NCBI RefSeq assembly: GCF_013378075.1
Contig: NZ_CP051131.1
Location: forward strand, 1,364,001 to 1,428,000
DNA length: 64,000 bases
From: Parasphingopyxis algicola
Lineage (GTDB): Bacteria; Pseudomonadota; Alphaproteobacteria; Sphingomonadales; Sphingomonadaceae
Direction of reading: 5' to 3'
A program made the position numbers and the translations under genes. Positions 21,437 to 59,509 of this stretch are shown one piece after another (position 1 is the stretch's first letter; each line of letters begins with the position of its first letter). The notes beneath the pieces are model-generated. The model made no database searches, was not told the DNA's origin, and saw only the letters and a list, made by a program, of their open reading frames with translations.

Positions 21437-22324
21437 ATGGCATCCTTGATCCGCGAGAGTTCGACGAAACCACGACCATCCACACGGCTTGAAGAAAGCG
21501 CCAGAAACCGAGCCAGAAAACGCAAGACCAACGGCGCAACGACACCTCAGTCCCCCGAACGACTCAATAGTCTGATCGAAAGAGAAATCATTCCGCGGCT
21601 GGTCGCCGCCCATTCGATTCCCGGAAGCACCGAAAATTTCGAACCCGTTTCCCAAGAGGAAATCGATCGCTTCGCGCCGCTACCGGTCAGGCTCGAAGCC
21701 GATGAGCTACTGACCGAGGTCGAAGTCTTCCTGAGCCGGGGCGTCCCGGCGGAAATCATCTTCGTCGAACTGCTCGCTCCCTCGGCCCGCAAGCTCGGAG
21801 AGCTTTGGGAAGAGGACAGCGTCGATTTCACCGAGGTGACGATGGGGTTGTGGCGGCTTCAGGAGGTCATGCGCGAAATCGCGTCCAGGACGCCGAGCAT
21901 CGCCGGTCGCCTGTTTTCGCCGCGATCCGTTCTCTTTGCCCCCATGCCCGGCGAGCAGCACAGTTTCGGTACGGTCATGGTCGAAGAATGCTTCTCACGC
22001 GCCGGCTGGGATACCGAACTGGTCGTCAACGGGGACCGGTCCGCGCTCGCGGACCGAATTGCCGAACAGATTTTCGACCTGGTCGGATTGACGATCAGCT
22101 GCGACTGCCATATCGGACCGCTTCCGAAACTAATTCAATCTCTCCGTAGCGTTTCCAAGAATTCTGATATTCGGATCATGATCGGGGGACGCGTGCCGAA
22201 CGAATATCCGGGCCTTGCCGATACGGTGGGCGCGGACGGGACGGCATCGAACGCCCGCACAGCTATAGAGGTCGCTGACGAACTGGTTGCCGATTTTGCG
22301 CCAAAAGGAGCGCTTTCCGGCTGA
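21437..22324 (+). CDS. aerR: PpaA/AerR-type antirepressor with B12-binding-like (SCHIC) domain
   Basis: 295 residues from ATG 21437 with GGGAGAG five bases upstream. A basic, disordered N terminus (RNRARKRKT) is followed by a helical cap (RLEADELLTEVEVFLSRG, LLAPSARKLGELWEEDSVDFTEVTMG) and a Rossmann-like cobalamin-binding domain with PMPGEQHSFGTVMVEE and the C-terminal IGGRVPNEYPGLADTVGADGTA. In Rhodobacter AerR/PpaA senses light or redox state through bound cobalamin or heme and relieves repression by PpsR/CrtJ. It overlaps the ppsR leader region and is directly upstream of ppsR, the conserved arrangement. Confidence 0.93.
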   Translation: MASLIRESSTKPRPSTRLEESARNRARKRKTNGATTPQSPERLNSLIEREIIPRLVAAHSIPGSTENFEPVSQEEIDRFAPLPVRLEADELLTEVEVFLSRGVPAEIIFVELLAPSARKLGELWEEDSVDFTEVTMGLWRLQEVMREIASRTPSIAGRLFSPRSVLFAPMPGEQHSFGTVMVEECFSRAGWDTELVVNGDRSALADRIAEQIFDLVGLTISCDCHIGPLPKLIQSLRSVSKNSDIRIMIGGRVPNEYPGLADTVGADGTASNARTAIEVADELVADFAPKGALSG

Positions 22325-42947: not shown

Positions 42948-43945
42948 CCGAACAGCTCGGCGATCGCCCGGTCGATCCGCGCCGTCGACCCTGTTTCGTC
43001 GAGTACGTCGCGGCGCAACCGGTGCCGCAACGCCATCGGCGCCACCGCGATCAGCTGCTCGCGCGCTACTTTCTTCTTTCCCTCGAGCGCCGCCAGAGCC
43101 TTGGACGCACGCATCAGGGTCAATTCGCCACGCAACCCGTCCGCACCAACCGCCACGCACAGTTCGGCGGAATCGGAAAGCACCGCCTCGGGTACGACGA
43201 TCGTGTCGAGCGCCTTCTGCCCGCGCGCGATCTGACGCAGAATCTTCGCGTCGGCCTTTTTCCACTCTTCGGCAAACGTCTCCGGATCCCGCTCCTGCGC
43301 ATCGCAGCGGCGCATGATCTCGATCCGCTGTTCGATATCGTCCGGCGTCTTCACCTCGACCGACAGGCCGAACCGGTCGAGCAGCTGAGGCCGGAGTTCG
43401 CCTTCCTCCGGATTGCCGCTGCCAATCAGCACAAAGCGCGCCGGATGGCGGACCGAAAGCCCCTCCCGCTCGACGAGATTTTCGCCCGAAGCTGCAACGT
43501 CGAGCAACAGATCGACCAGATGATCCTCGAGCAGGTTGATCTCGTCGATATAGAGGAAACCGCGATGCGCACGGGCGAGGAGGCCCGGCTCGAACGCCTT
43601 TTCGCCCCTGCCGAGCGCGCGTTCGAGGTCGAGTGCGCCGACCACCCGGTCCTCGGTCGCGCCGAGCGGCAGGTCGACAAAGGGCACGGGCACGCGCCGG
43701 ACGCGCTTGCCAATCGGTTCCTCGGGATAATTCTCGCGCGCGTCGGGATCGCAGTTGAAGCGAGTCCCTTCGATAACGCGCATCGGTGGCAGGAGCGCCG
43801 ACAGCGCGCGCGCGGCCGTCGACTTGCCGGTCCCGCGATCGCCGAACACCATCACCCCGCCGATCCTGGCGTCGACGGCCGCGATCAGCAGCGCCCGTTT
43901 CATCTCGTCCTGGCCAACGATCGCGGAAAAGGGAAAAGCGGTCAT
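42944..43945 (-). CDS. bchI: Magnesium chelatase ATPase subunit I
   Basis: 333 residues from ATG 43945. AAA+ ATPase: Walker A VMVFGDRGTGKSTAARAL, Walker B GFLYIDEINLLEDHLVD, sensor 1 FVLIGSGNPEEGELRPQLLDRFG. Motor of Mg-chelatase. First gene of bchI-D-O-orf66; no PpsR site or FNR box is visible in the 122 bases upstream of it. Confidence 0.97.
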   Translation of the reverse strand: MTAFPFSAIVGQDEMKRALLIAAVDARIGGVMVFGDRGTGKSTAARALSALLPPMRVIEGTRFNCDPDARENYPEEPIGKRVRRVPVPFVDLPLGATEDRVVGALDLERALGRGEKAFEPGLLARAHRGFLYIDEINLLEDHLVDLLLDVAASGENLVEREGLSVRHPARFVLIGSGNPEEGELRPQLLDRFGLSVEVKTPDDIEQRIEIMRRCDAQERDPETFAEEWKKADAKILRQIARGQKALDTIVVPEAVLSDSAELCVAVGADGLRGELTLMRASKALAALEGKKKVAREQLIAVAPMALRHRLRRDVLDETGSTARIDRAIAELFG

Positions 43946-46623: not shown

Positions 46624-46737
46624 CGAAAACACTCACTCCAAACAACGATAAACGGCGAATATCTTTATCGTCCGACCGCCTGCCTATAGGTAGAAGCCCG
46701 TATTTGCCGCATAGGCGGCTTGGCGGAGACAGTTCGC

Positions 46738-47652
46738 ATGAAAATGCTCCTTTCCGCGCTGTTCGGACTATCGCTCGGCCTCGCCGCGCCGGCCTTCGCA
46801 CAGGAGGAATTGACCGAAATCCCGCTGGCCGACATTCCGACGGAAACGGCGACAATGCCCGATCATCCCTATCCTGTCGCGCTGCGGGAAGCCCATGCCG
46901 CGGAGACCGACCTCGCGCGGCGCGCGACGCTCGCCGCGAATCTGGAACGCTGGCGGCGGATGCCGGCATCGCTCGGGCCACGCTATCTGATCGTCAACGC
47001 CGCCGCCTTCGAAGTCACTCTTTGGGAAGGTCGGCGGGAAATGGGCCGGTGGCGCGTGATCGTGGGTACGCCGCGCACACCCACCCCGATTTTCCAGGCG
47101 GAAGTTTCGGGCGTGATCTTCAATCCGTGGTGGGAAATTCCTGCCAGTATCGCGGCCGAAGGTATCGCATCGATGGTCCGCAACCGGCCGGCCGCGGCCC
47201 GACAGCGCGGCTATGTCTATCAAAACGGCCGCTATCGCCAGCGCCCCGGCCCCGGCAACGCACTCGGCCTGATGAAGCTGGTCATGCCCAACCCATATAG
47301 CGTTTTCCTGCACGACACGTCGAACCGCACATTGTTCGAGCGGGACGTTCGTGCGCTCAGCCATGGCTGTGTCCGGGTGGGCGATGCGATAGGTTTCGCG
47401 ACGGAGCTGTTGGCCGCACGGCCGGGCTGGAACCGGGCGCGCACCGACGAAATTGTCGCTTCCGGGCAGACGATGCGTATCGATCTGCCCGAGCCCATCC
47501 CCGTCTATATCGGCTATTTCACGGCAGAACCGGCCGAAGACGGGACGATCCGCTATTTTACGGACATTTATAACCGCGACCGGCGATCGGCCCAGCTCAG
47601 TTCGATCGAGACGGATGTGGACGGAGAAGATCCGCGCTGCCGCGTCTCATAG
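46738..47652 (+). CDS. L,D-transpeptidase (YkuD/ErfK family), secreted
   Basis: 304 residues from ATG 46738 with GGCGGAG upstream. A Sec signal peptide (MKMLLSALFGLSLGLAAPAFA) precedes a helical region and the YkuD domain: LIVNAAAFEVTLWEGRREM, GVIFNPWWEIPASI, LHDTSNRTLFERDVRALSHGCVRV with the catalytic His and Cys. It would form 3-3 cross-links in peptidoglycan. Followed by a long inverted repeat at 47658-47718. Confidence 0.93.
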   Translation: MKMLLSALFGLSLGLAAPAFAQEELTEIPLADIPTETATMPDHPYPVALREAHAAETDLARRATLAANLERWRRMPASLGPRYLIVNAAAFEVTLWEGRREMGRWRVIVGTPRTPTPIFQAEVSGVIFNPWWEIPASIAAEGIASMVRNRPAAARQRGYVYQNGRYRQRPGPGNALGLMKLVMPNPYSVFLHDTSNRTLFERDVRALSHGCVRVGDAIGFATELLAARPGWNRARTDEIVASGQTMRIDLPEPIPVYIGYFTAEPAEDGTIRYFTDIYNRDRRSAQLSSIETDVDGEDPRCRVS

Positions 47653-47654
47653 GC

Positions 47655-47805
47655 GAAGGGCCTGCGGCTTGACCGAATCTCATTCCGCTGGGGATTCGAT
47701 TCAGCCGTCCGCAGGCCCCCACCTGTCGAGTCATCGCCGAATGGCATCGCTCTGCTATGCTTGCGCATGGGAAGAACGGGGTAGCCTTCGACTCGTCTTC
47801 AGGCA
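47655..47805 (-). ncRNA. Candidate FNR/FixK-activated small RNA (no protein-coding assignment)
   Basis: The FNR/FixK box at 47839-47852 lies between two convergent genes, so neither is its target in the usual sense. Reading the minus strand, 21 bases after the box comes GATAAT (47817-47812), which is the spacing of a class II FNR promoter; transcription would start near 47805, run about 150 bases, and end with the bipartite hairpin at 47718-47658. A 66-codon open frame from ATG 47768 exists but has no ribosome site and runs antisense into the transpeptidase gene. By layout this resembles FNR-dependent regulatory RNAs such as FnrS; it is a prediction only. Confidence 0.4.
47658..47718. terminator. 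Long bipartite hairpin between convergent transcription units
   Basis: GGGCCTGCGG (47658-47667) pairs with CCGCAGGCCC (47709-47718); inside it CGAATC (47674-47679) pairs with GATTCG (47693-47698). It follows the L,D-transpeptidase stop by five bases and would also form the 3' end of the minus-strand RNA proposed at 47655-47805. No clear T run on either side. Confidence 0.6.
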
Positions 47806-47838
47806 GCTCTCATTATCGGGCTGGAGCGAACCGCCCAA

Positions 47839-47852
47839 TTGACTCGGATCAA
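47839..47852 (-). promoter_or_regulatory. FNR/FixK-type box, orphan between convergent genes
   Basis: TTGACTCGGATCAA on the plus strand (TTGATCCGAGTCAA on the minus) matches TTGAT-N4-ATCAA at nine of ten positions. The well-placed GATAAT is on the minus strand only; no -10-like element is seen at the matching distance on the plus strand. Confidence 0.65.
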
Positions 47853-47890
47853 GCCTCAGAAAGTTTTTCGCGGTCAACGATCAGCATAGC

Positions 47891-48322
47891 TCAGGTCGAT
47901 GGCCAAAGCGCCCGGATATCGCGTGGCAAGCCGCTCTTGATATCATCCACCTCGCCCGGCGAAAGGCGCGCATCCAGCAATGTGAAAACCGCACGGACCG
48001 CCGCCTCTGGATCGGCATTCGGGTCGGTATCGAAGGCGGATTCCACGGCGGCGATAAATTCGGCCGCGTGCTTGTAGTCCGTTTGCGGACTGGAAGGCCG
48101 CCAACCCTCATAATAGATGCCGCGCACCAGGATCGGCAGCTGCGCGGCGACGTGCACCGCTTCGTTCACCTGCAGCCGATCGCGCAACGTGTGCAAGGCC
48201 GATCTCAGCAACCGGTACGCCCGCTTCTTGTCGTCCCAGTCGAGCATCTTCATCAGCTCGTCGAGCCAGATATTGGCGTCCTGAATGGCCTTGTCGAATA
48301 TTCGCAAACCCAGCGCACTCAT
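47891..48322 (-). CDS. DUF2267 domain protein
   Basis: 143 residues from ATG 48322. The family pattern IQDANIWLDELMKMLDWDDKKRAYRLLRSALHTLRDRLQVNEAVHVAAQLPILVRGIYYEGWRPS is complete and typical; the C-terminal half (FTLLDARLSPGEVDDIKSGLPRDIRALWP) is the second half of the DUF2267 repeat. Function unknown; family members occur in stress or low-oxygen regulons (general knowledge). It follows the DUF4136 lipoprotein by 41 bases and is probably in the same transcript. Confidence 0.88.
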   Translation of the reverse strand: MSALGLRIFDKAIQDANIWLDELMKMLDWDDKKRAYRLLRSALHTLRDRLQVNEAVHVAAQLPILVRGIYYEGWRPSSPQTDYKHAAEFIAAVESAFDTDPNADPEAAVRAVFTLLDARLSPGEVDDIKSGLPRDIRALWPST

Positions 48323-49236: not shown

Positions 49237-50298
49237 ATGACGATGGGGATGATGAAGGCCGCTATTTTCGTGGAGCCGGGCCGGATCGTGATCGACGACA
49301 AGCCGGTTCCTGACATCGGTCCGACCGAGGCTCTGATCAAAATCACCACGACGACGATCTGCGGCACGGACGTCCATATCCTGAAGGGCGAATATCCGGT
49401 CGAGCCGGGTCTGACGGTCGGCCACGAACCGGTCGGCATCATCGCGGCGCTGGGTTCGGCGGTTAACGGGTTTCGCGAGGGCGAGCGGGTGATCGCCGGT
49501 GCGATCACGCCATGCGGCCAGTGTTTCTCCTGCCTCGACGGGCACCTCGCCCAATGCCGCGGCGAAGCGATCGGCGGCTGGCGGTTCGGCAACACTATCG
49601 ATGGCGCGCAAGCCGAATATCTCCTCGTTCCCGATGCCGCCGCCAACTTGACACGCGTCCCCGAGCATCTGAGCGACGAACAGGTGCTGATGTGCCCGGA
49701 CATCATGTCGACGGGTTTTTCCGGTGCCGAAAGCGGCGGAATCCGGATCGGCGATACGGTGGCGATCTTCGCGCAGGGCCCGATCGGCCTGTGCGCGACG
49801 GCCGGCGCGAAACTGTGCGGCGCGACGCGGATCATAACGGTGGAAACTGTCCCCGAACGGATCGCCATGTCCAAGGCGATGGGCGCCGATATCGTCATCG
49901 ATTTCAACGCCGAAGATCCGGTCGACCGGATCATGGAGCTGACCCAGGAACGGGGAGTCGATGTCGCGATCGAGGCGCTGGGAACGCAAGAGACTTTCGA
50001 GGCCTGTCTGCGCGTCGCGAAGCCGGGCGGTACGGTATCGAGCCTTGGCGTCTATTCGGGGAAACTGTCGCTGCCCGTCGACGCGTTCGCGGCCGGGCTC
50101 GGCGATCATCATATCGTCACGACATTGTGCCCAGGCGGCAAGGAACGGATGCGGCGGCTTATCGAGGTCGTCGCTTCGGGCCGGGTCGATCTCAAACCCT
50201 TGGTCACCCACCGATTCGACCTGGAAGATATCGAGGCGGCCTACGACCTGTTCGCGCATCAGCGCGACGGCGTCTTGAAGATCGCCGTCACGCCCTAG
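49237..50298 (+). CDS. Zinc-dependent alcohol dehydrogenase (NAD-dependent, TDH/SDH-like)
   Basis: 353 residues from ATG 49237 with a strong GGAGGGGG site. Catalytic zinc motif TTICGTDVHILKGEYPVEPGLTVGHEPVG, structural zinc region CGQCFSCLDGHLAQCRG, where the usual fourth Cys spacing is shortened, cofactor motif VAIFAQGPIGLCATAGAKL. Family members oxidise secondary or short-chain alcohols, and such enzymes are often induced in low oxygen. Preceded by the FNR/FixK-type box at 49148 and convergent with fixK. Confidence 0.9.
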   Translation: MTMGMMKAAIFVEPGRIVIDDKPVPDIGPTEALIKITTTTICGTDVHILKGEYPVEPGLTVGHEPVGIIAALGSAVNGFREGERVIAGAITPCGQCFSCLDGHLAQCRGEAIGGWRFGNTIDGAQAEYLLVPDAAANLTRVPEHLSDEQVLMCPDIMSTGFSGAESGGIRIGDTVAIFAQGPIGLCATAGAKLCGATRIITVETVPERIAMSKAMGADIVIDFNAEDPVDRIMELTQERGVDVAIEALGTQETFEACLRVAKPGGTVSSLGVYSGKLSLPVDAFAAGLGDHHIVTTLCPGGKERMRRLIEVVASGRVDLKPLVTHRFDLEDIEAAYDLFAHQRDGVLKIAVTP

Positions 50299-50939
50299 TG
50301 CGAAGCGAGGCTCAGTATCCGGCCTGGGTCGACGATGCGGATGCAATCGTGTTTTTCGATCCGGACGGCCCCGATTTCCTTCAGTTTCCGGAAAGCCCGA
50401 CACACGGTTTCGGGGGTCAGAGCGAGATAGGCCGCGATATCGGTCTGCGGCATCGGCAACACCGTTTCGTCGCCATGACCGAGCCGTGCGCAAACATCGG
50501 CGAGAAATGAGCACATGCGCGCGAGCGCGCCTTGCCGGCCGAGCAGCAGGCTGCGCATATAGCTCGCTTCCAGTTCGGGACGGACCGTACCGAAAAGCGT
50601 ATCGTTGAAATCCGGCGTACAGCGCAATTCTTCGGTCCAGCATTCGACGGCCTGGGTCGAATAGCGAACTTCTGTAACCGCTTCGGCAGTGTACCGGCAG
50701 CGTCCGCCGAGCGGCACGCCGATCACATCGCCGGGAAAGAAAAAGCCGGTGACCTGCCGTTCGCCCTCCGACGAAAAATTGACGCTGCGGATTATTCCCG
50801 TCTCGATCCGGAACAGTTGCCGCGCCTCATCGCCTTCCCAGAACAAAGCCTGTCCGGGCGATATGTGAACGGACAATGCCCTGCGGCCGGCAGGCTCCGG
50901 ATGAAATGGTATGACATTTTCCGCGAATTCCGGTTCCAT
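50295..50939 (-). CDS. fixK: Crp/FNR-family transcription regulator, FixK type
   Basis: 214 residues from ATG 50939 with GGGAGGA five bases upstream. Cyclic-nucleotide-type sensor fold (GQALFWEGDEARQLFRIETGIIRSV, QVTGFFFPGDVIGVP) and C-terminal HTH with recognition helix LTPETVCRAFRKLKEIGAV; the E..xR pattern matches FNR/FixK readers of TTGAT-N4-ATCAA. It lacks the N-terminal Cys cluster that holds the oxygen-labile 4Fe-4S of FNR, so oxygen control should come from FixL-FixJ, encoded next to it. Cys occurs inside the HTH, a possible redox handle. Probable master of the boxes listed between 44.9 and 63.4 kb. Confidence 0.88.
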   Translation of the reverse strand: MEPEFAENVIPFHPEPAGRRALSVHISPGQALFWEGDEARQLFRIETGIIRSVNFSSEGERQVTGFFFPGDVIGVPLGGRCRYTAEAVTEVRYSTQAVECWTEELRCTPDFNDTLFGTVRPELEASYMRSLLLGRQGALARMCSFLADVCARLGHGDETVLPMPQTDIAAYLALTPETVCRAFRKLKEIGAVRIEKHDCIRIVDPGRILSLASH

Positions 50940-51059
50940 GGTGTCCTCCCGAAGGTCCAAGTCGAACCAGTGCAATGTGCGGCTCGCGGGCCCGGTCGGG
51001 GAGTCGTGGCTTATACCTATGGCGCGCCGAAATCCGCCCCTCAGAGTACGGATAATGCG

Positions 51060-51671
51060 CTATGCGCCGTTGTGGATGCCGAGCCGCATCGCCATGCGAA
51101 CGATATCGGCCAGGTTTTTCGCCTCCATCTTCGTCATCACCCGCGCGCGATGTATCTCCACGGTCCTCGGGCTGCACCCCAGATTATAAGCGATGACCTT
51201 GTTCGGCTGGCCGGTCACCAACTCGCGGAAGACATCCTTCTCACGTGGCGTCAGCGTATCCATCCGGGCGGCGAGTTCCGCGCGTTCGGTCGATTTCGCG
51301 CGCCCGGCTTCGCGTTGAGCAACGGCCTTTTCCACGGCTTCCATCAGTCGGGCATCAAGAAACGGCTTTTCGAGGAAATCGGCCGCGCCTTTCTGGATCG
51401 CCGAAACTGCAAGATCGACATCGCCATGCCCCGTCATCATGATGACCGGCAAGGCCGGGTCGCGGCGCTGGAGCTGTTCCAGGAGATCCATGCCGTCATG
51501 CTTGGGCATCCGGATATCGAGCAGGACGCAATCCGCTTTGCGCAGATCCGCATCGGCAATGAATGTCTCCGCATCGTCATGCGTTTCGATCGCATAACCG
51601 GCCAGCTTGAGCCGGCCGCCGAGTGCATCGAGGATCGCCGGATCGTCGTCGACGAGAATAATCGCGGCCAT
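51060..51671 (-). CDS. fixJ: Two-component response regulator FixJ
   Basis: 203 residues from ATG 51671, two bases after the fixL stop. Receiver domain with acidic pocket VDDD (8-10), phospho-acceptor Asp52 (LLDIRMPKHDG), Thr/Lys switch (MMTGHGD, FLEKPF), then a LuxR-type helix-turn-helix (LTPREKDVFRELVTGQPNKVIAYNLGCSPRTVEIHRARVMTKM) typical of FixJ. Phosphorylated FixJ is expected to activate fixK, which lies 120 bases downstream in the same direction. Confidence 0.94.
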   Translation of the reverse strand: MAAIILVDDDPAILDALGGRLKLAGYAIETHDDAETFIADADLRKADCVLLDIRMPKHDGMDLLEQLQRRDPALPVIMMTGHGDVDLAVSAIQKGAADFLEKPFLDARLMEAVEKAVAQREAGRAKSTERAELAARMDTLTPREKDVFRELVTGQPNKVIAYNLGCSPRTVEIHRARVMTKMEAKNLADIVRMAMRLGIHNGA

Positions 51672-51673
51672 CC

Positions 51674-52807
51674 CTAATCCTCGGTCGAAGCGGGAATGGC
51701 GAAACAGAGACGGGCACCGTTCGCCTGGCGGTCCTCGGCCCAGATCGTGCCGCCATGCGCGGTGACGATCGACCGGCAGATGGCAAGGCCTATGCCCAGC
51801 CCGTCGCTATTGCCGCTGACGAACCGGTCGAAAAGGTCGTCGCGCAGCTTGGGATCGATGCCGGTGCCGGTATCCTCGACGCATATCTGGACATGCGTAT
51901 CCCGGTGCGGCTTGGCGGATATCCGGATAAGCGGCACTTCGGCATTGCCCAGCGCTTCCACGGCGTTGCGCAGGAGATTGTGCAGCACCTGCTGGATCTG
52001 CACCGGTTCCACGCGGACCGCCGGAAGATCTTCGGGGATATCCAGTTCGATGGCGATCCGCTTCTTTTCGCTTTCCAGGAGCGAGAGATCGACGGCTTCG
52101 CGGATCAATGGTTCAAGCTCGCAACGCGTCTTCTCACCGCCCGTGAAGCGGACGAACCGTCTGAGCGACCGTATGATATCGCCGGTGCGTTCGGTCTGCC
52201 GGTTCGCCTTTTCGATAAACTCCTGCGCGGACGCAATGTCGGGATCTTTCTCCGAAAGCTGGTGGCTGGCGGCACTCAGATACTGGTTGATGGCCGCAAG
52301 CGGCTGGTTGATCTCGTGCGCCAGCCCAGTCGCCAGCTCGCCCATGGATGCGACGCGTGCCATATGCTGCATCGCCGTTCGCATTTCCTCTTCGCGTACC
52401 TTCGCCCGTTCTTCCTCGGTCAGGTCGTGCAGCAACCCCACGAACAAAGGCTCCCCACCGTCCCAGACTTCGGCAACTCTCAGAAATACGGGAAAGAGCG
52501 AGCCGTCCTTGCGCCGGGCTTCGACTCTTCGGCCGACACCGATGATATGCGGCTCGTGTGTTTTCACATAGCGGGCGATATAGGCATCATGGCGGTCATG
52601 ATGTGGCGAGGGCATCATGACGTTCACATTTGCACCGATCAATTCGTCGCCCGAATAACCGAACATCGTCGAAGCGACGGCGCCGATCGACTGGATGATG
52701 CCGTGCCGGTCGATCGTCACGATCATGTCCGGCGACATAGACAAAAGCGCGTTCAGCAGCAGGTCCCGCCGGGCAAGCTCCGTATCCGGTTGTTTGGGTG
52801 CATTCAT
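51674..52807 (-). CDS. fixL: Oxygen-sensing heme PAS histidine kinase FixL
   Basis: 377 residues from ATG 52807 with GGGAG seven bases upstream; no membrane segment, so the kinase is cytoplasmic. A single PAS domain carries, by alignment from memory with Bradyrhizobium FixL, the proximal heme ligand His73 (DRHDAYIARY), Arg79, distal-pocket His87 and Arg93 (EPHIIGVGRR), i.e. His200, Arg206, His214 and Arg220 of that protein. Phosphoacceptor His164 sits in GELATGLAHEINQPLAAIN, followed by a HATPase domain (NLLRNAVEAL, DTGTGIDPKLRDDLFDRF, DGLGIGLAICRSIV). Oxygen bound to the heme should switch the kinase off. Confidence 0.94.
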   Translation of the reverse strand: MNAPKQPDTELARRDLLLNALLSMSPDMIVTIDRHGIIQSIGAVASTMFGYSGDELIGANVNVMMPSPHHDRHDAYIARYVKTHEPHIIGVGRRVEARRKDGSLFPVFLRVAEVWDGGEPLFVGLLHDLTEEERAKVREEEMRTAMQHMARVASMGELATGLAHEINQPLAAINQYLSAASHQLSEKDPDIASAQEFIEKANRQTERTGDIIRSLRRFVRFTGGEKTRCELEPLIREAVDLSLLESEKKRIAIELDIPEDLPAVRVEPVQIQQVLHNLLRNAVEALGNAEVPLIRISAKPHRDTHVQICVEDTGTGIDPKLRDDLFDRFVSGNSDGLGIGLAICRSIVTAHGGTIWAEDRQANGARLCFAIPASTED

Positions 52808-52899
52808 TACTGACTCCCAGGAGCTGCACATCGCATGACGGGCGGATCCCACGCAAGCGATCTGCACGATCCCGTTTGGCTGGATCATCGTTTGCGCGG

Positions 52900-52913
52900 T
52901 TGACCCCGATCAA
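52900..52913 (+). promoter_or_regulatory. FNR/FixK-type box between fixL and hsp20
   Basis: TTGACCCCGATCAA matches at nine of ten positions. On the plus strand GAATAT (52936-52941) is exactly 22 bases away at the -10 position for hsp20. A matching -10 towards fixL is not evident, but the box is also within 100 bases of its start, so feedback on fixL is possible. Confidence 0.7.
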
Positions 52914-53619: not shown

Positions 53620-53633
53620 TTGACGCGGATCAA
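53620..53633 (+). promoter_or_regulatory. FNR/FixK-type box for the persulfide dioxygenase-SQR operon
   Basis: TTGACGCGGATCAA matches at nine of ten positions; CACTAT (53656-53661) is 22 bases downstream at the -10 position. The gene begins at 53742. Confidence 0.7.
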
Positions 53634-59495: not shown

Positions 59496-59509
59496 TTGAC
59501 GCACATCAA
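59496..59509 (+). promoter_or_regulatory. FNR/FixK-type box for the GCS2 ligase-M14 pair
   Basis: TTGACGCACATCAA matches at nine of ten positions and lies 138 bases before the TTG start. A clear -10 is not visible at the exact distance (TACGGA is the nearest). The leader holds the hairpin at 59574-59611. Confidence 0.62.

Follow-up and report, generated by a model that had tools for sequence, protein, structure and literature searches.

A candidate FixK-activated noncoding RNA of Sphingomonadales with a conserved fold and an FNR/FixK box at a fixed distance

A predicted noncoding RNA of approximately 150 nt is found on the minus strand at positions 47655–47804 of the 64,000-nt stretch of DNA analyzed here (termed the window). 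It probably belongs to a new RNA family, and would be transcribed from its own promoter and activated by FixK. The RNA, its fold, an FNR/FixK box and the position of this box are supported by sequence comparisons. A preliminary description of the same DNA had proposed a minus-strand noncoding RNA of this length with an FNR/FixK box, and had suggested a covariance search of related genomes. This search detects conservation: covariance models find 12 loci in 11 genomes of Sphingomonadales, the fold and 3′ hairpin are kept in the relatives, and the box is present in seven of the 12 loci.

The FNR/FixK box TTGACTCGGATCAA is located at positions 47839–47852 (no strand assigned) and matches TTGAY-N4-RTCAA at all ten informative positions. 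As had been described, it is flanked by the 3′ ends of a YkuD L,D-transpeptidase gene (46720–47652, plus strand) and a DUF2267 protein gene (47891–48322, minus strand). The RNA itself had been placed between two convergent genes; only ykuD is on the strand opposite to the RNA, and DUF2267 is an upstream neighbor on the RNA's own strand. The center of the box is 41.5 bases 5′ of the first base of the closing helix P1 (position 47804, the assumed start). A minus-strand −10-like element, GATAAT, is situated 21 bases downstream of the box at 47817–47812, where the preliminary description had it. The same slot in three related loci, compared by eye, displays CATTAT (L002), TATCGA (L003) and CATAAA (L007).

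In the window there are four perfect TTGAY-N4-RTCAA sites compared with 0.13 expected, and none of 100 shuffled sequences reaches four (the shuffle maximum is three). Across all 3.67 Mb of the genome the pattern occurs at 24 places, as opposed to one for the reversed control pattern, and four of the 24 are within the window. The three additional sites are at 52900–52913, 53620–53633 and 59496–59509, the first of which adjoins a fixL-like gene; this part of the window resembles a low-oxygen regulon island. Ten open frames beside boxes were examined, nine elsewhere in the genome (several of the stretches inspected overlap) and one in the window. Eight show a Pfam match, i.e. to universal stress protein, CBS, nitroreductase, Crp/Fnr, MFS, DUF736, alginate export-like and glutamate-cysteine ligase-like families. 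Near 347.3 kb of the genome (L016/L017), two FNR boxes approximately 100 bp apart are flanked by a Crp/Fnr gene on one side and an MFS transporter gene on the other.

The predicted RNA is delimited by a covariance model match at 47655–47804, the window sequence itself being in the training set of that model, and by a blastn match at 47655–47806 to a genome of the same genus (G007). Its P1 helix is formed by GCCUG (47800–47804) and CAGGU (47721–47725), all positions being on the minus strand. P1 encloses an internal loop with GAG on the 5′ side (RNA nt 11–13, 47792–47794) and AUGA on the 3′ side (nt 71–74, 47731–47734), and an inner hairpin, AUGC-GCAA-GCAU, with a GNRA tetraloop (47757–47768). 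A terminator-like hairpin follows at 47656–47720; its U tract is weak in the window and strong in L007 (GAUUUUUUU). A bipartite hairpin had been noted about 90 bases after the predicted start, and its onset is indeed approximately 85 nt in. The 157-nt strand 47806–47650 has a folding energy of −71.2 kcal/mol (z = −3.48), and none of 200 shuffled sequences is as stable.

Relatives were initially sought with the 238-bp intergenic DNA by blastn in 60 genomes, four of which matched, the window's own genome (G000) included. The match in G007 (L002) covers only window positions 47806–47655, a block that opens at the predicted start and closes with the hairpin. G001 (L003) shows a partial match to the intergenic DNA, and has a Crp/Fnr gene rather than DUF2267 upstream on the strand of the RNA. 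The fourth match (L004 in G029, E = 0.0086) was taken as chance and is outside the counts for the 12 loci. A covariance model of the window, L002 and L003 sequences (R1), which represents the RNA only and leaves out the promoter, matched four of 397 genomes of the family, namely the three it was trained on and G399 (L007, E = 1.1e-4 per one genome; model E-values are from a shortened calibration). L007 is located between formate dehydrogenase-like and formate/nitrite transporter genes; the spacing between its box, TTGATCGTGATCAA, and the RNA is unchanged, and its terminator hairpin is followed by GAUUUUUUU. Within the window's own genus, R1 matches at E values up to 1 occur in four of ten genomes, and three are convincing.

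A pattern made from these four loci (the box, GAGTYG and CGATGA) finds the same four again, as expected, and no others among the 397 genomes; the reversed control gives none. A tighter pattern run over approximately 85,000 species genomes gave 33 matches, of which only those in G007, G001 and G399 score clearly with R1. The other 30 are without a clear R1 score and are left out of the counts. More distant loci, which the tighter pattern would not have recovered, were found with two later models, R2 (built on four sequences) and R3 (built on eight). R2 matched four of 396 genomes of the order, i.e. G000, G223 (L065), G450 (L066) and G054 (L067), and within the genus of G399 only G399 itself among 32 genomes. 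R3 matched eight of 346 genomes of the order, the new ones being G463 (L072), G485 (L073), G074 (L074) and G196 (L075). By genus, R3 matched two of three genomes in that of G054, two of 19 in that of G463 and one of 41 in that of G074; among 284 genomes of the class there were two matches, both to loci already known.

The RNA family thus appears patchy and, as sampled, confined to Sphingomonadales. The patchiness counts against the explanation we prefer, with four of 397 family genomes, eight of 346 order genomes and few genomes within the same genera showing the RNA; so do the weak U tract of the window and the five of the 12 loci that have no box. The absences in the large model runs are soft because the filters were strict and few candidates were scored per genome. 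L066, from a different family of Sphingomonadales, has two tandem copies without an FNR box (1501–1671 and 1836–2001; termed L066a and L066b). A possible second, divergent copy is at L073:1326–1441 (plus strand), on the opposite strand and aimed at the first; it is left out of the counts. A DUF4136-like gene adjoins it, and one is also near the RNA in the window. Also excluded were L008, which is a GC-rich repeat, reverse-strand echoes of the hairpin, and a match at window positions 43810–43916 (E = 0.1). A scan with Rfam covariance models gave nothing at gathering score in the window, and nothing up to E = 1 in window positions 47600–47900, L002, L003, L007, L065, L066 and L067. Because of this result the RNA is not assigned to FnrS or to another Rfam family.

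Folded separately by energy, the 12 sequences display one plan: the closing helix P1, an internal loop, an inner hairpin and a 3′ terminator-like hairpin. In L074 the inner part is much shortened, and in L003 there are only three uninterrupted P1 pairs at the very end. P1 forms in all 12 loci from differing sequences, e.g. GCCUG/CAGGU, GCAAG/CUUGC, GUCAGAUG/CAUUUGGC, GCAUGAUG/CAUCAUGU and CUGAUUGG/CCAAUCAG. Compared with 200 shuffles each, fold stability gives z values of −4.96 for L007, −3.06 for L002 and −2.84 for L003, the last with two shuffles as stable. In the four-sequence alignment 90.4% of cells are paired, and 13 of 39 pairs have changes on both sides versus 4.7 in shuffled alignments (0 of 500 reach this) and at most seven when the structure is slid; further pair types number 24 versus 17.1 (1 of 500). 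In the eight-sequence alignment, with 25 core pairs, 91.9% are paired. Pairs with changes on both sides number 12 versus 7.2 (1 of 500 shuffles), and cells with such changes 29 versus 11.5 (0 of 500) and at most eight when slid. A less clear measure for the eight sequences is that of further pair types, 27 versus 24.1, which 43 of 500 shuffles reach, and helix 2 is 81% paired. All of these covariation figures are favored by the drawing of the structures from folds of the same sequences, and by the relatedness of the sequences.

The internal loop is the least variable part of the RNA. GAG begins at nt 11 in 11 of the 12 loci and at nt 10 in one, and AUGA is opposite at the matching place in 11 loci (AAGA in L073). 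The models know these letters, thus part of the loop conservation reflects how the loci were selected. The tetraloop of the inner hairpin is GCAA in G007 and G001, GAAA in G399, and of non-GNRA type in the remaining loci. A kink-turn reading of the internal loop was considered by eye and dropped.

The window has a photosynthesis gene cluster at 6–40 kb (5896–39323), beside the fixLJK-like island, with acsF, puhA/C/E, bchM/L/H/N/G/P/Z/Y/X/C, ppsR, pufL, pufC and crtD. Pigment genes had been suggested as possible targets of the RNA, and this is unsupported. An ungapped pairing scan of 45 window gene starts, with the RNA and 12 resampled RNAs, showed nothing beyond resampled RNA; each start was the first start codon of an open frame, and some are surely wrong, since the hemA and pufC frames extend far upstream of their family match. 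The best score, −5.1 kcal/mol for 12 bp over the listed start of a B12-binding protein gene, is matched or beaten by 29% of the null scores. This gene (21437–22324) is just upstream of ppsR and is one that we take, by its position, to be AerR/PpaA-like; its 12-bp match to the RNA is within chance. A second ungapped scan, in which 20 resampled RNAs were set against 65 candidate starts from 19 pigment genes, likewise gave nothing beyond resampled RNA, and bch, puf, puh and crt starts were covered by the two scans: the lowest number in the second of null RNAs scoring at or below the real RNA was five of 20 (bchZ). On average the real RNA pairs more weakly than the resampled ones (−1.8 versus −4.2 kcal/mol in the first scan, −2.4 versus −5.6 in the second), the resampled RNAs being less folded and thus an easy null to lose against. 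No match to BchH, BchX, PufL, PpsR or CrtD turned up in the flanking DNA examined at the RNA loci of other genomes (51 kb in G007, 57.6 kb in G001, 40 kb in G399, 16–18 kb in G463, G485, G074, G196 and G223, and 3 kb in G450 and G054).

The weak predicted pairing with window genes does not favor a simple antisense action. The RNA may instead be real and FixK-driven but serve as a sponge or scaffold that binds a protein or ligand by its two-sided internal loop; this differs from the explanation we prefer only in the last step, and we consider it possible but rather unlikely. The near constancy of GAG and AUGA within helices that drift with compensation points to such binding, as does the poor pairing. 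However, a pairing seed would account for the conserved loop equally well, the loop's conservation comes in part from the models that picked the loci, and pairing was scanned against window genes only. The wider proposal, held just as tentatively, is of a new Sphingomonadales RNA family with a constant GAG/AUGA loop whose spacing from the 5′ end is fixed by covarying helices, with protein or ligand binding more than antisense pairing as its function, and with an exchangeable promoter that is FixK-boxed or box-free by lineage.

The relation between the box and the RNA is close. With +1 taken as the first P1 base, the box center is at −41.5 in the window (with GATAAT in place), L002, L003 and L007, and at −40.5 in L072, L073 and L074. 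The box matches at nine of ten informative positions in L003 and at all ten in the other six boxed loci; it is absent from the remaining five (L065, L066a, L066b, L067 and L075). Nine of the 12 loci were found with models of the RNA only, and in four of these nine a box is no more than two bases from this spot. When the DNA upstream of the nine loci was resampled 20,000 times with a Markov model, one box appeared in 208 resamples, two in one, and never more. L072 and L073 are near relatives, thus the support from the box amounts to about three lineages beside the window's own genus. The assumed start would place the box at the class II activator position, −41.5 or −40.5. The Fnr box consensus given for Sphingopyxis granuli TFA is TTGAc/t-N4-g/aTCAA, and most of the boxes of regulated operons reported there are at −41.5, with one-base shifts (PMC7713065).

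The box could regulate a neighboring gene and not the RNA. In L007, L072, L073 and L074 a divergent gene (formate dehydrogenase-like, FtsH-like twice, and Crp/Fnr) has its start codon 144–249 bp from the box, which might serve this gene too. Against this, the distance between box and RNA is constant within one base in all seven boxed loci whereas that to the divergent start codon varies, and no divergent gene shares the box in the window, L002 or L003. We therefore regard regulation of the neighbor in place of the RNA as quite improbable. It is a little less probable still that the RNA arises by processing from the 3′ end of the upstream DUF2267 mRNA. The end of DUF2267, on the same strand, is 38 bp before the box in the window and 37 bp in G007, but in G001 the RNA has no such gene next to it, none was found in the flanks of L007 and L072–L074, and the RNA is preceded by a box and a −10-like site.

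In L007, L072, L073 and L074 the box and RNA occur together beside differing genes, which speaks for the explanation we prefer. Another reading takes the RNA as a cis-acting antisense transcript against ykuD that is made by read-through; the end of the RNA adjoins the ykuD stop codon in the window and L002 and is 66 nt away in L003, and the window terminator is weak. No ykuD match is present in the flanks of L007, L072, L073 and L074, however, and we give this reading the same low credence as that of a DUF2267 mRNA end. Very little probability attaches to the view that the hairpin is merely a shared transcription terminator with no separate RNA: it adjoins the ykuD stop codon in the window and L002, but the 85 nt ahead of it are conserved with covarying helices, and the unit is also found beside other genes.

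The preliminary description had seen no ribosome site and no credible coding frame, and both points stand for the five window frames and in the comparison of the 12 loci. The five frames of 28–66 codons that start inside the window RNA have none of the five Shine-Dalgarno-like 4-mers checked upstream of them, and a by-eye comparison of the 12 loci shows no reading frame preserved in both sequence and length. Short frames close to the 5′ end (such as 22 aa in L002 and 26–28 aa in L066a, L066b and L067) would be candidates for a small protein, but the window has no start codon for that frame and its frame, length and sequence are not kept, and a coding function is the least probable of the readings considered.

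The box had been called an orphan. This is not the case, as fixK-, fixJ- and fixL-like genes begin 2.4 kb from it on the minus strand. The three are a FixK-like Crp/Fnr regulator (50295–50975, best NCBIfam match FixK), a FixJ-like response regulator (51060–51671; 236.9 bits, cut-off 255) and a FixL-like PAS sensor kinase (51674–52888; 345 bits, cut-off 850); they are termed "-like" because each best match is under the cut-off of its family. No N-terminal cysteine cluster is present in the first 90 residues of the FixK-like protein or near the N-terminus of L016:722–1456, and by this test neither is of the oxygen-sensing FNR type. N-terminal cysteines are said to separate FnrN from FixK, which is without them (PMC7713065). 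The FixK-like protein is the likely activator of the RNA. Homologues of the regulators were sought by tblastn (E up to 1e-8) in the stretches around the RNA loci. All three are present in G007 (72–76% identity) and G001 (40–52%). G399 has a FixK-like sequence at 42%, approximately 15 kb from the RNA, and G074 has one at 39% that adjoins the RNA. The matches in G463 (all three) and G485 (FixJ and FixL) are at only 26–28% and may merely reflect wide regulator families. G196, which is box-free, has FixJ and FixL at 40%. None of the three was found in the G223 stretch or within 3 kb of the RNA in G450 and G054.

The explanation we prefer is as follows; in it transcription of the RNA, its start site, FixK as its activator and its oxygen dependence are presumed. 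At low oxygen the FixL–FixJ pair would raise FixK, which would bind the box centered at −41.5 and recruit RNA polymerase to the adjacent −10 element by class II activation. Transcription would stop at the long GC-rich hairpin. The product would have a domain closed by P1, with the GAG/AUGA internal loop and inner hairpin, and a terminator-like hairpin after it. Most likely the RNA would act in trans and reset low-oxygen expression in the manner of FnrS and PcrZ, pairing with mRNAs being a guess. If correct, an RNA layer would be added to oxygen control beside the photosynthesis cluster and the FixLJ–FixK-like system. The box-free members would offer a natural comparison of one RNA placed under FixK control or released from it. 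The candidate is directly testable, as its promoter and fold have been predicted and 12 loci and a set of covariance models are at hand.

FnrS is a standalone sRNA with a terminator hairpin. It is activated by FNR in E. coli at low oxygen (PMC8139620). The candidate is similar in that it is predicted to be under an FNR/FixK box and to stand alone with a terminator-like hairpin. Unlike FnrS, it has a long domain closed by P1 and a FixK-like local regulator, and displays no Rfam match. PcrZ of Rhodobacter sphaeroides, a phototrophic alphaproteobacterium, is a low-oxygen sRNA with a PrrA site and perhaps indirect control by FnrL, and it represses photosynthesis genes (PMC8139620). The candidate would likewise be a low-oxygen sRNA, beside a photosynthesis cluster; in contrast to PcrZ, it has an FNR/FixK box at what is predicted to be the class II position, and its ungapped scans, made with uncurated start codons, show no pigment target. 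The RNA would thus follow the same logic as FnrS and PcrZ, yet apparently is not a member of a known RNA family.

In the literature searched, with subscription journals mostly outside it, no sRNA driven by FixK or FNR is reported for sphingomonads. The terms "sRNA", "small RNA" and "ncRNA" are absent from the main text of the Sphingopyxis granuli TFA report, and "non-coding" appears twice, both times in its reference list (PMC7713065). The class II Fnr promoters of this organism have centers at −41.5, −42.5 and −40.5 in most of the operons tabled there (PMC7713065). The box consensus and, on the assumed start, the centering are common to the candidate, but the tabled units are protein operons. 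The hypoxia regulon of Caulobacter consists of FixL, FixJ, FixK and genes with FixK sites, and the FixK-activated genes named in that account are protein genes (PMC3751524). FixL-, FixJ- and FixK-like genes and FNR/FixK boxes are seen here too, with the difference that the unit next to the box is a predicted RNA and not a protein gene.
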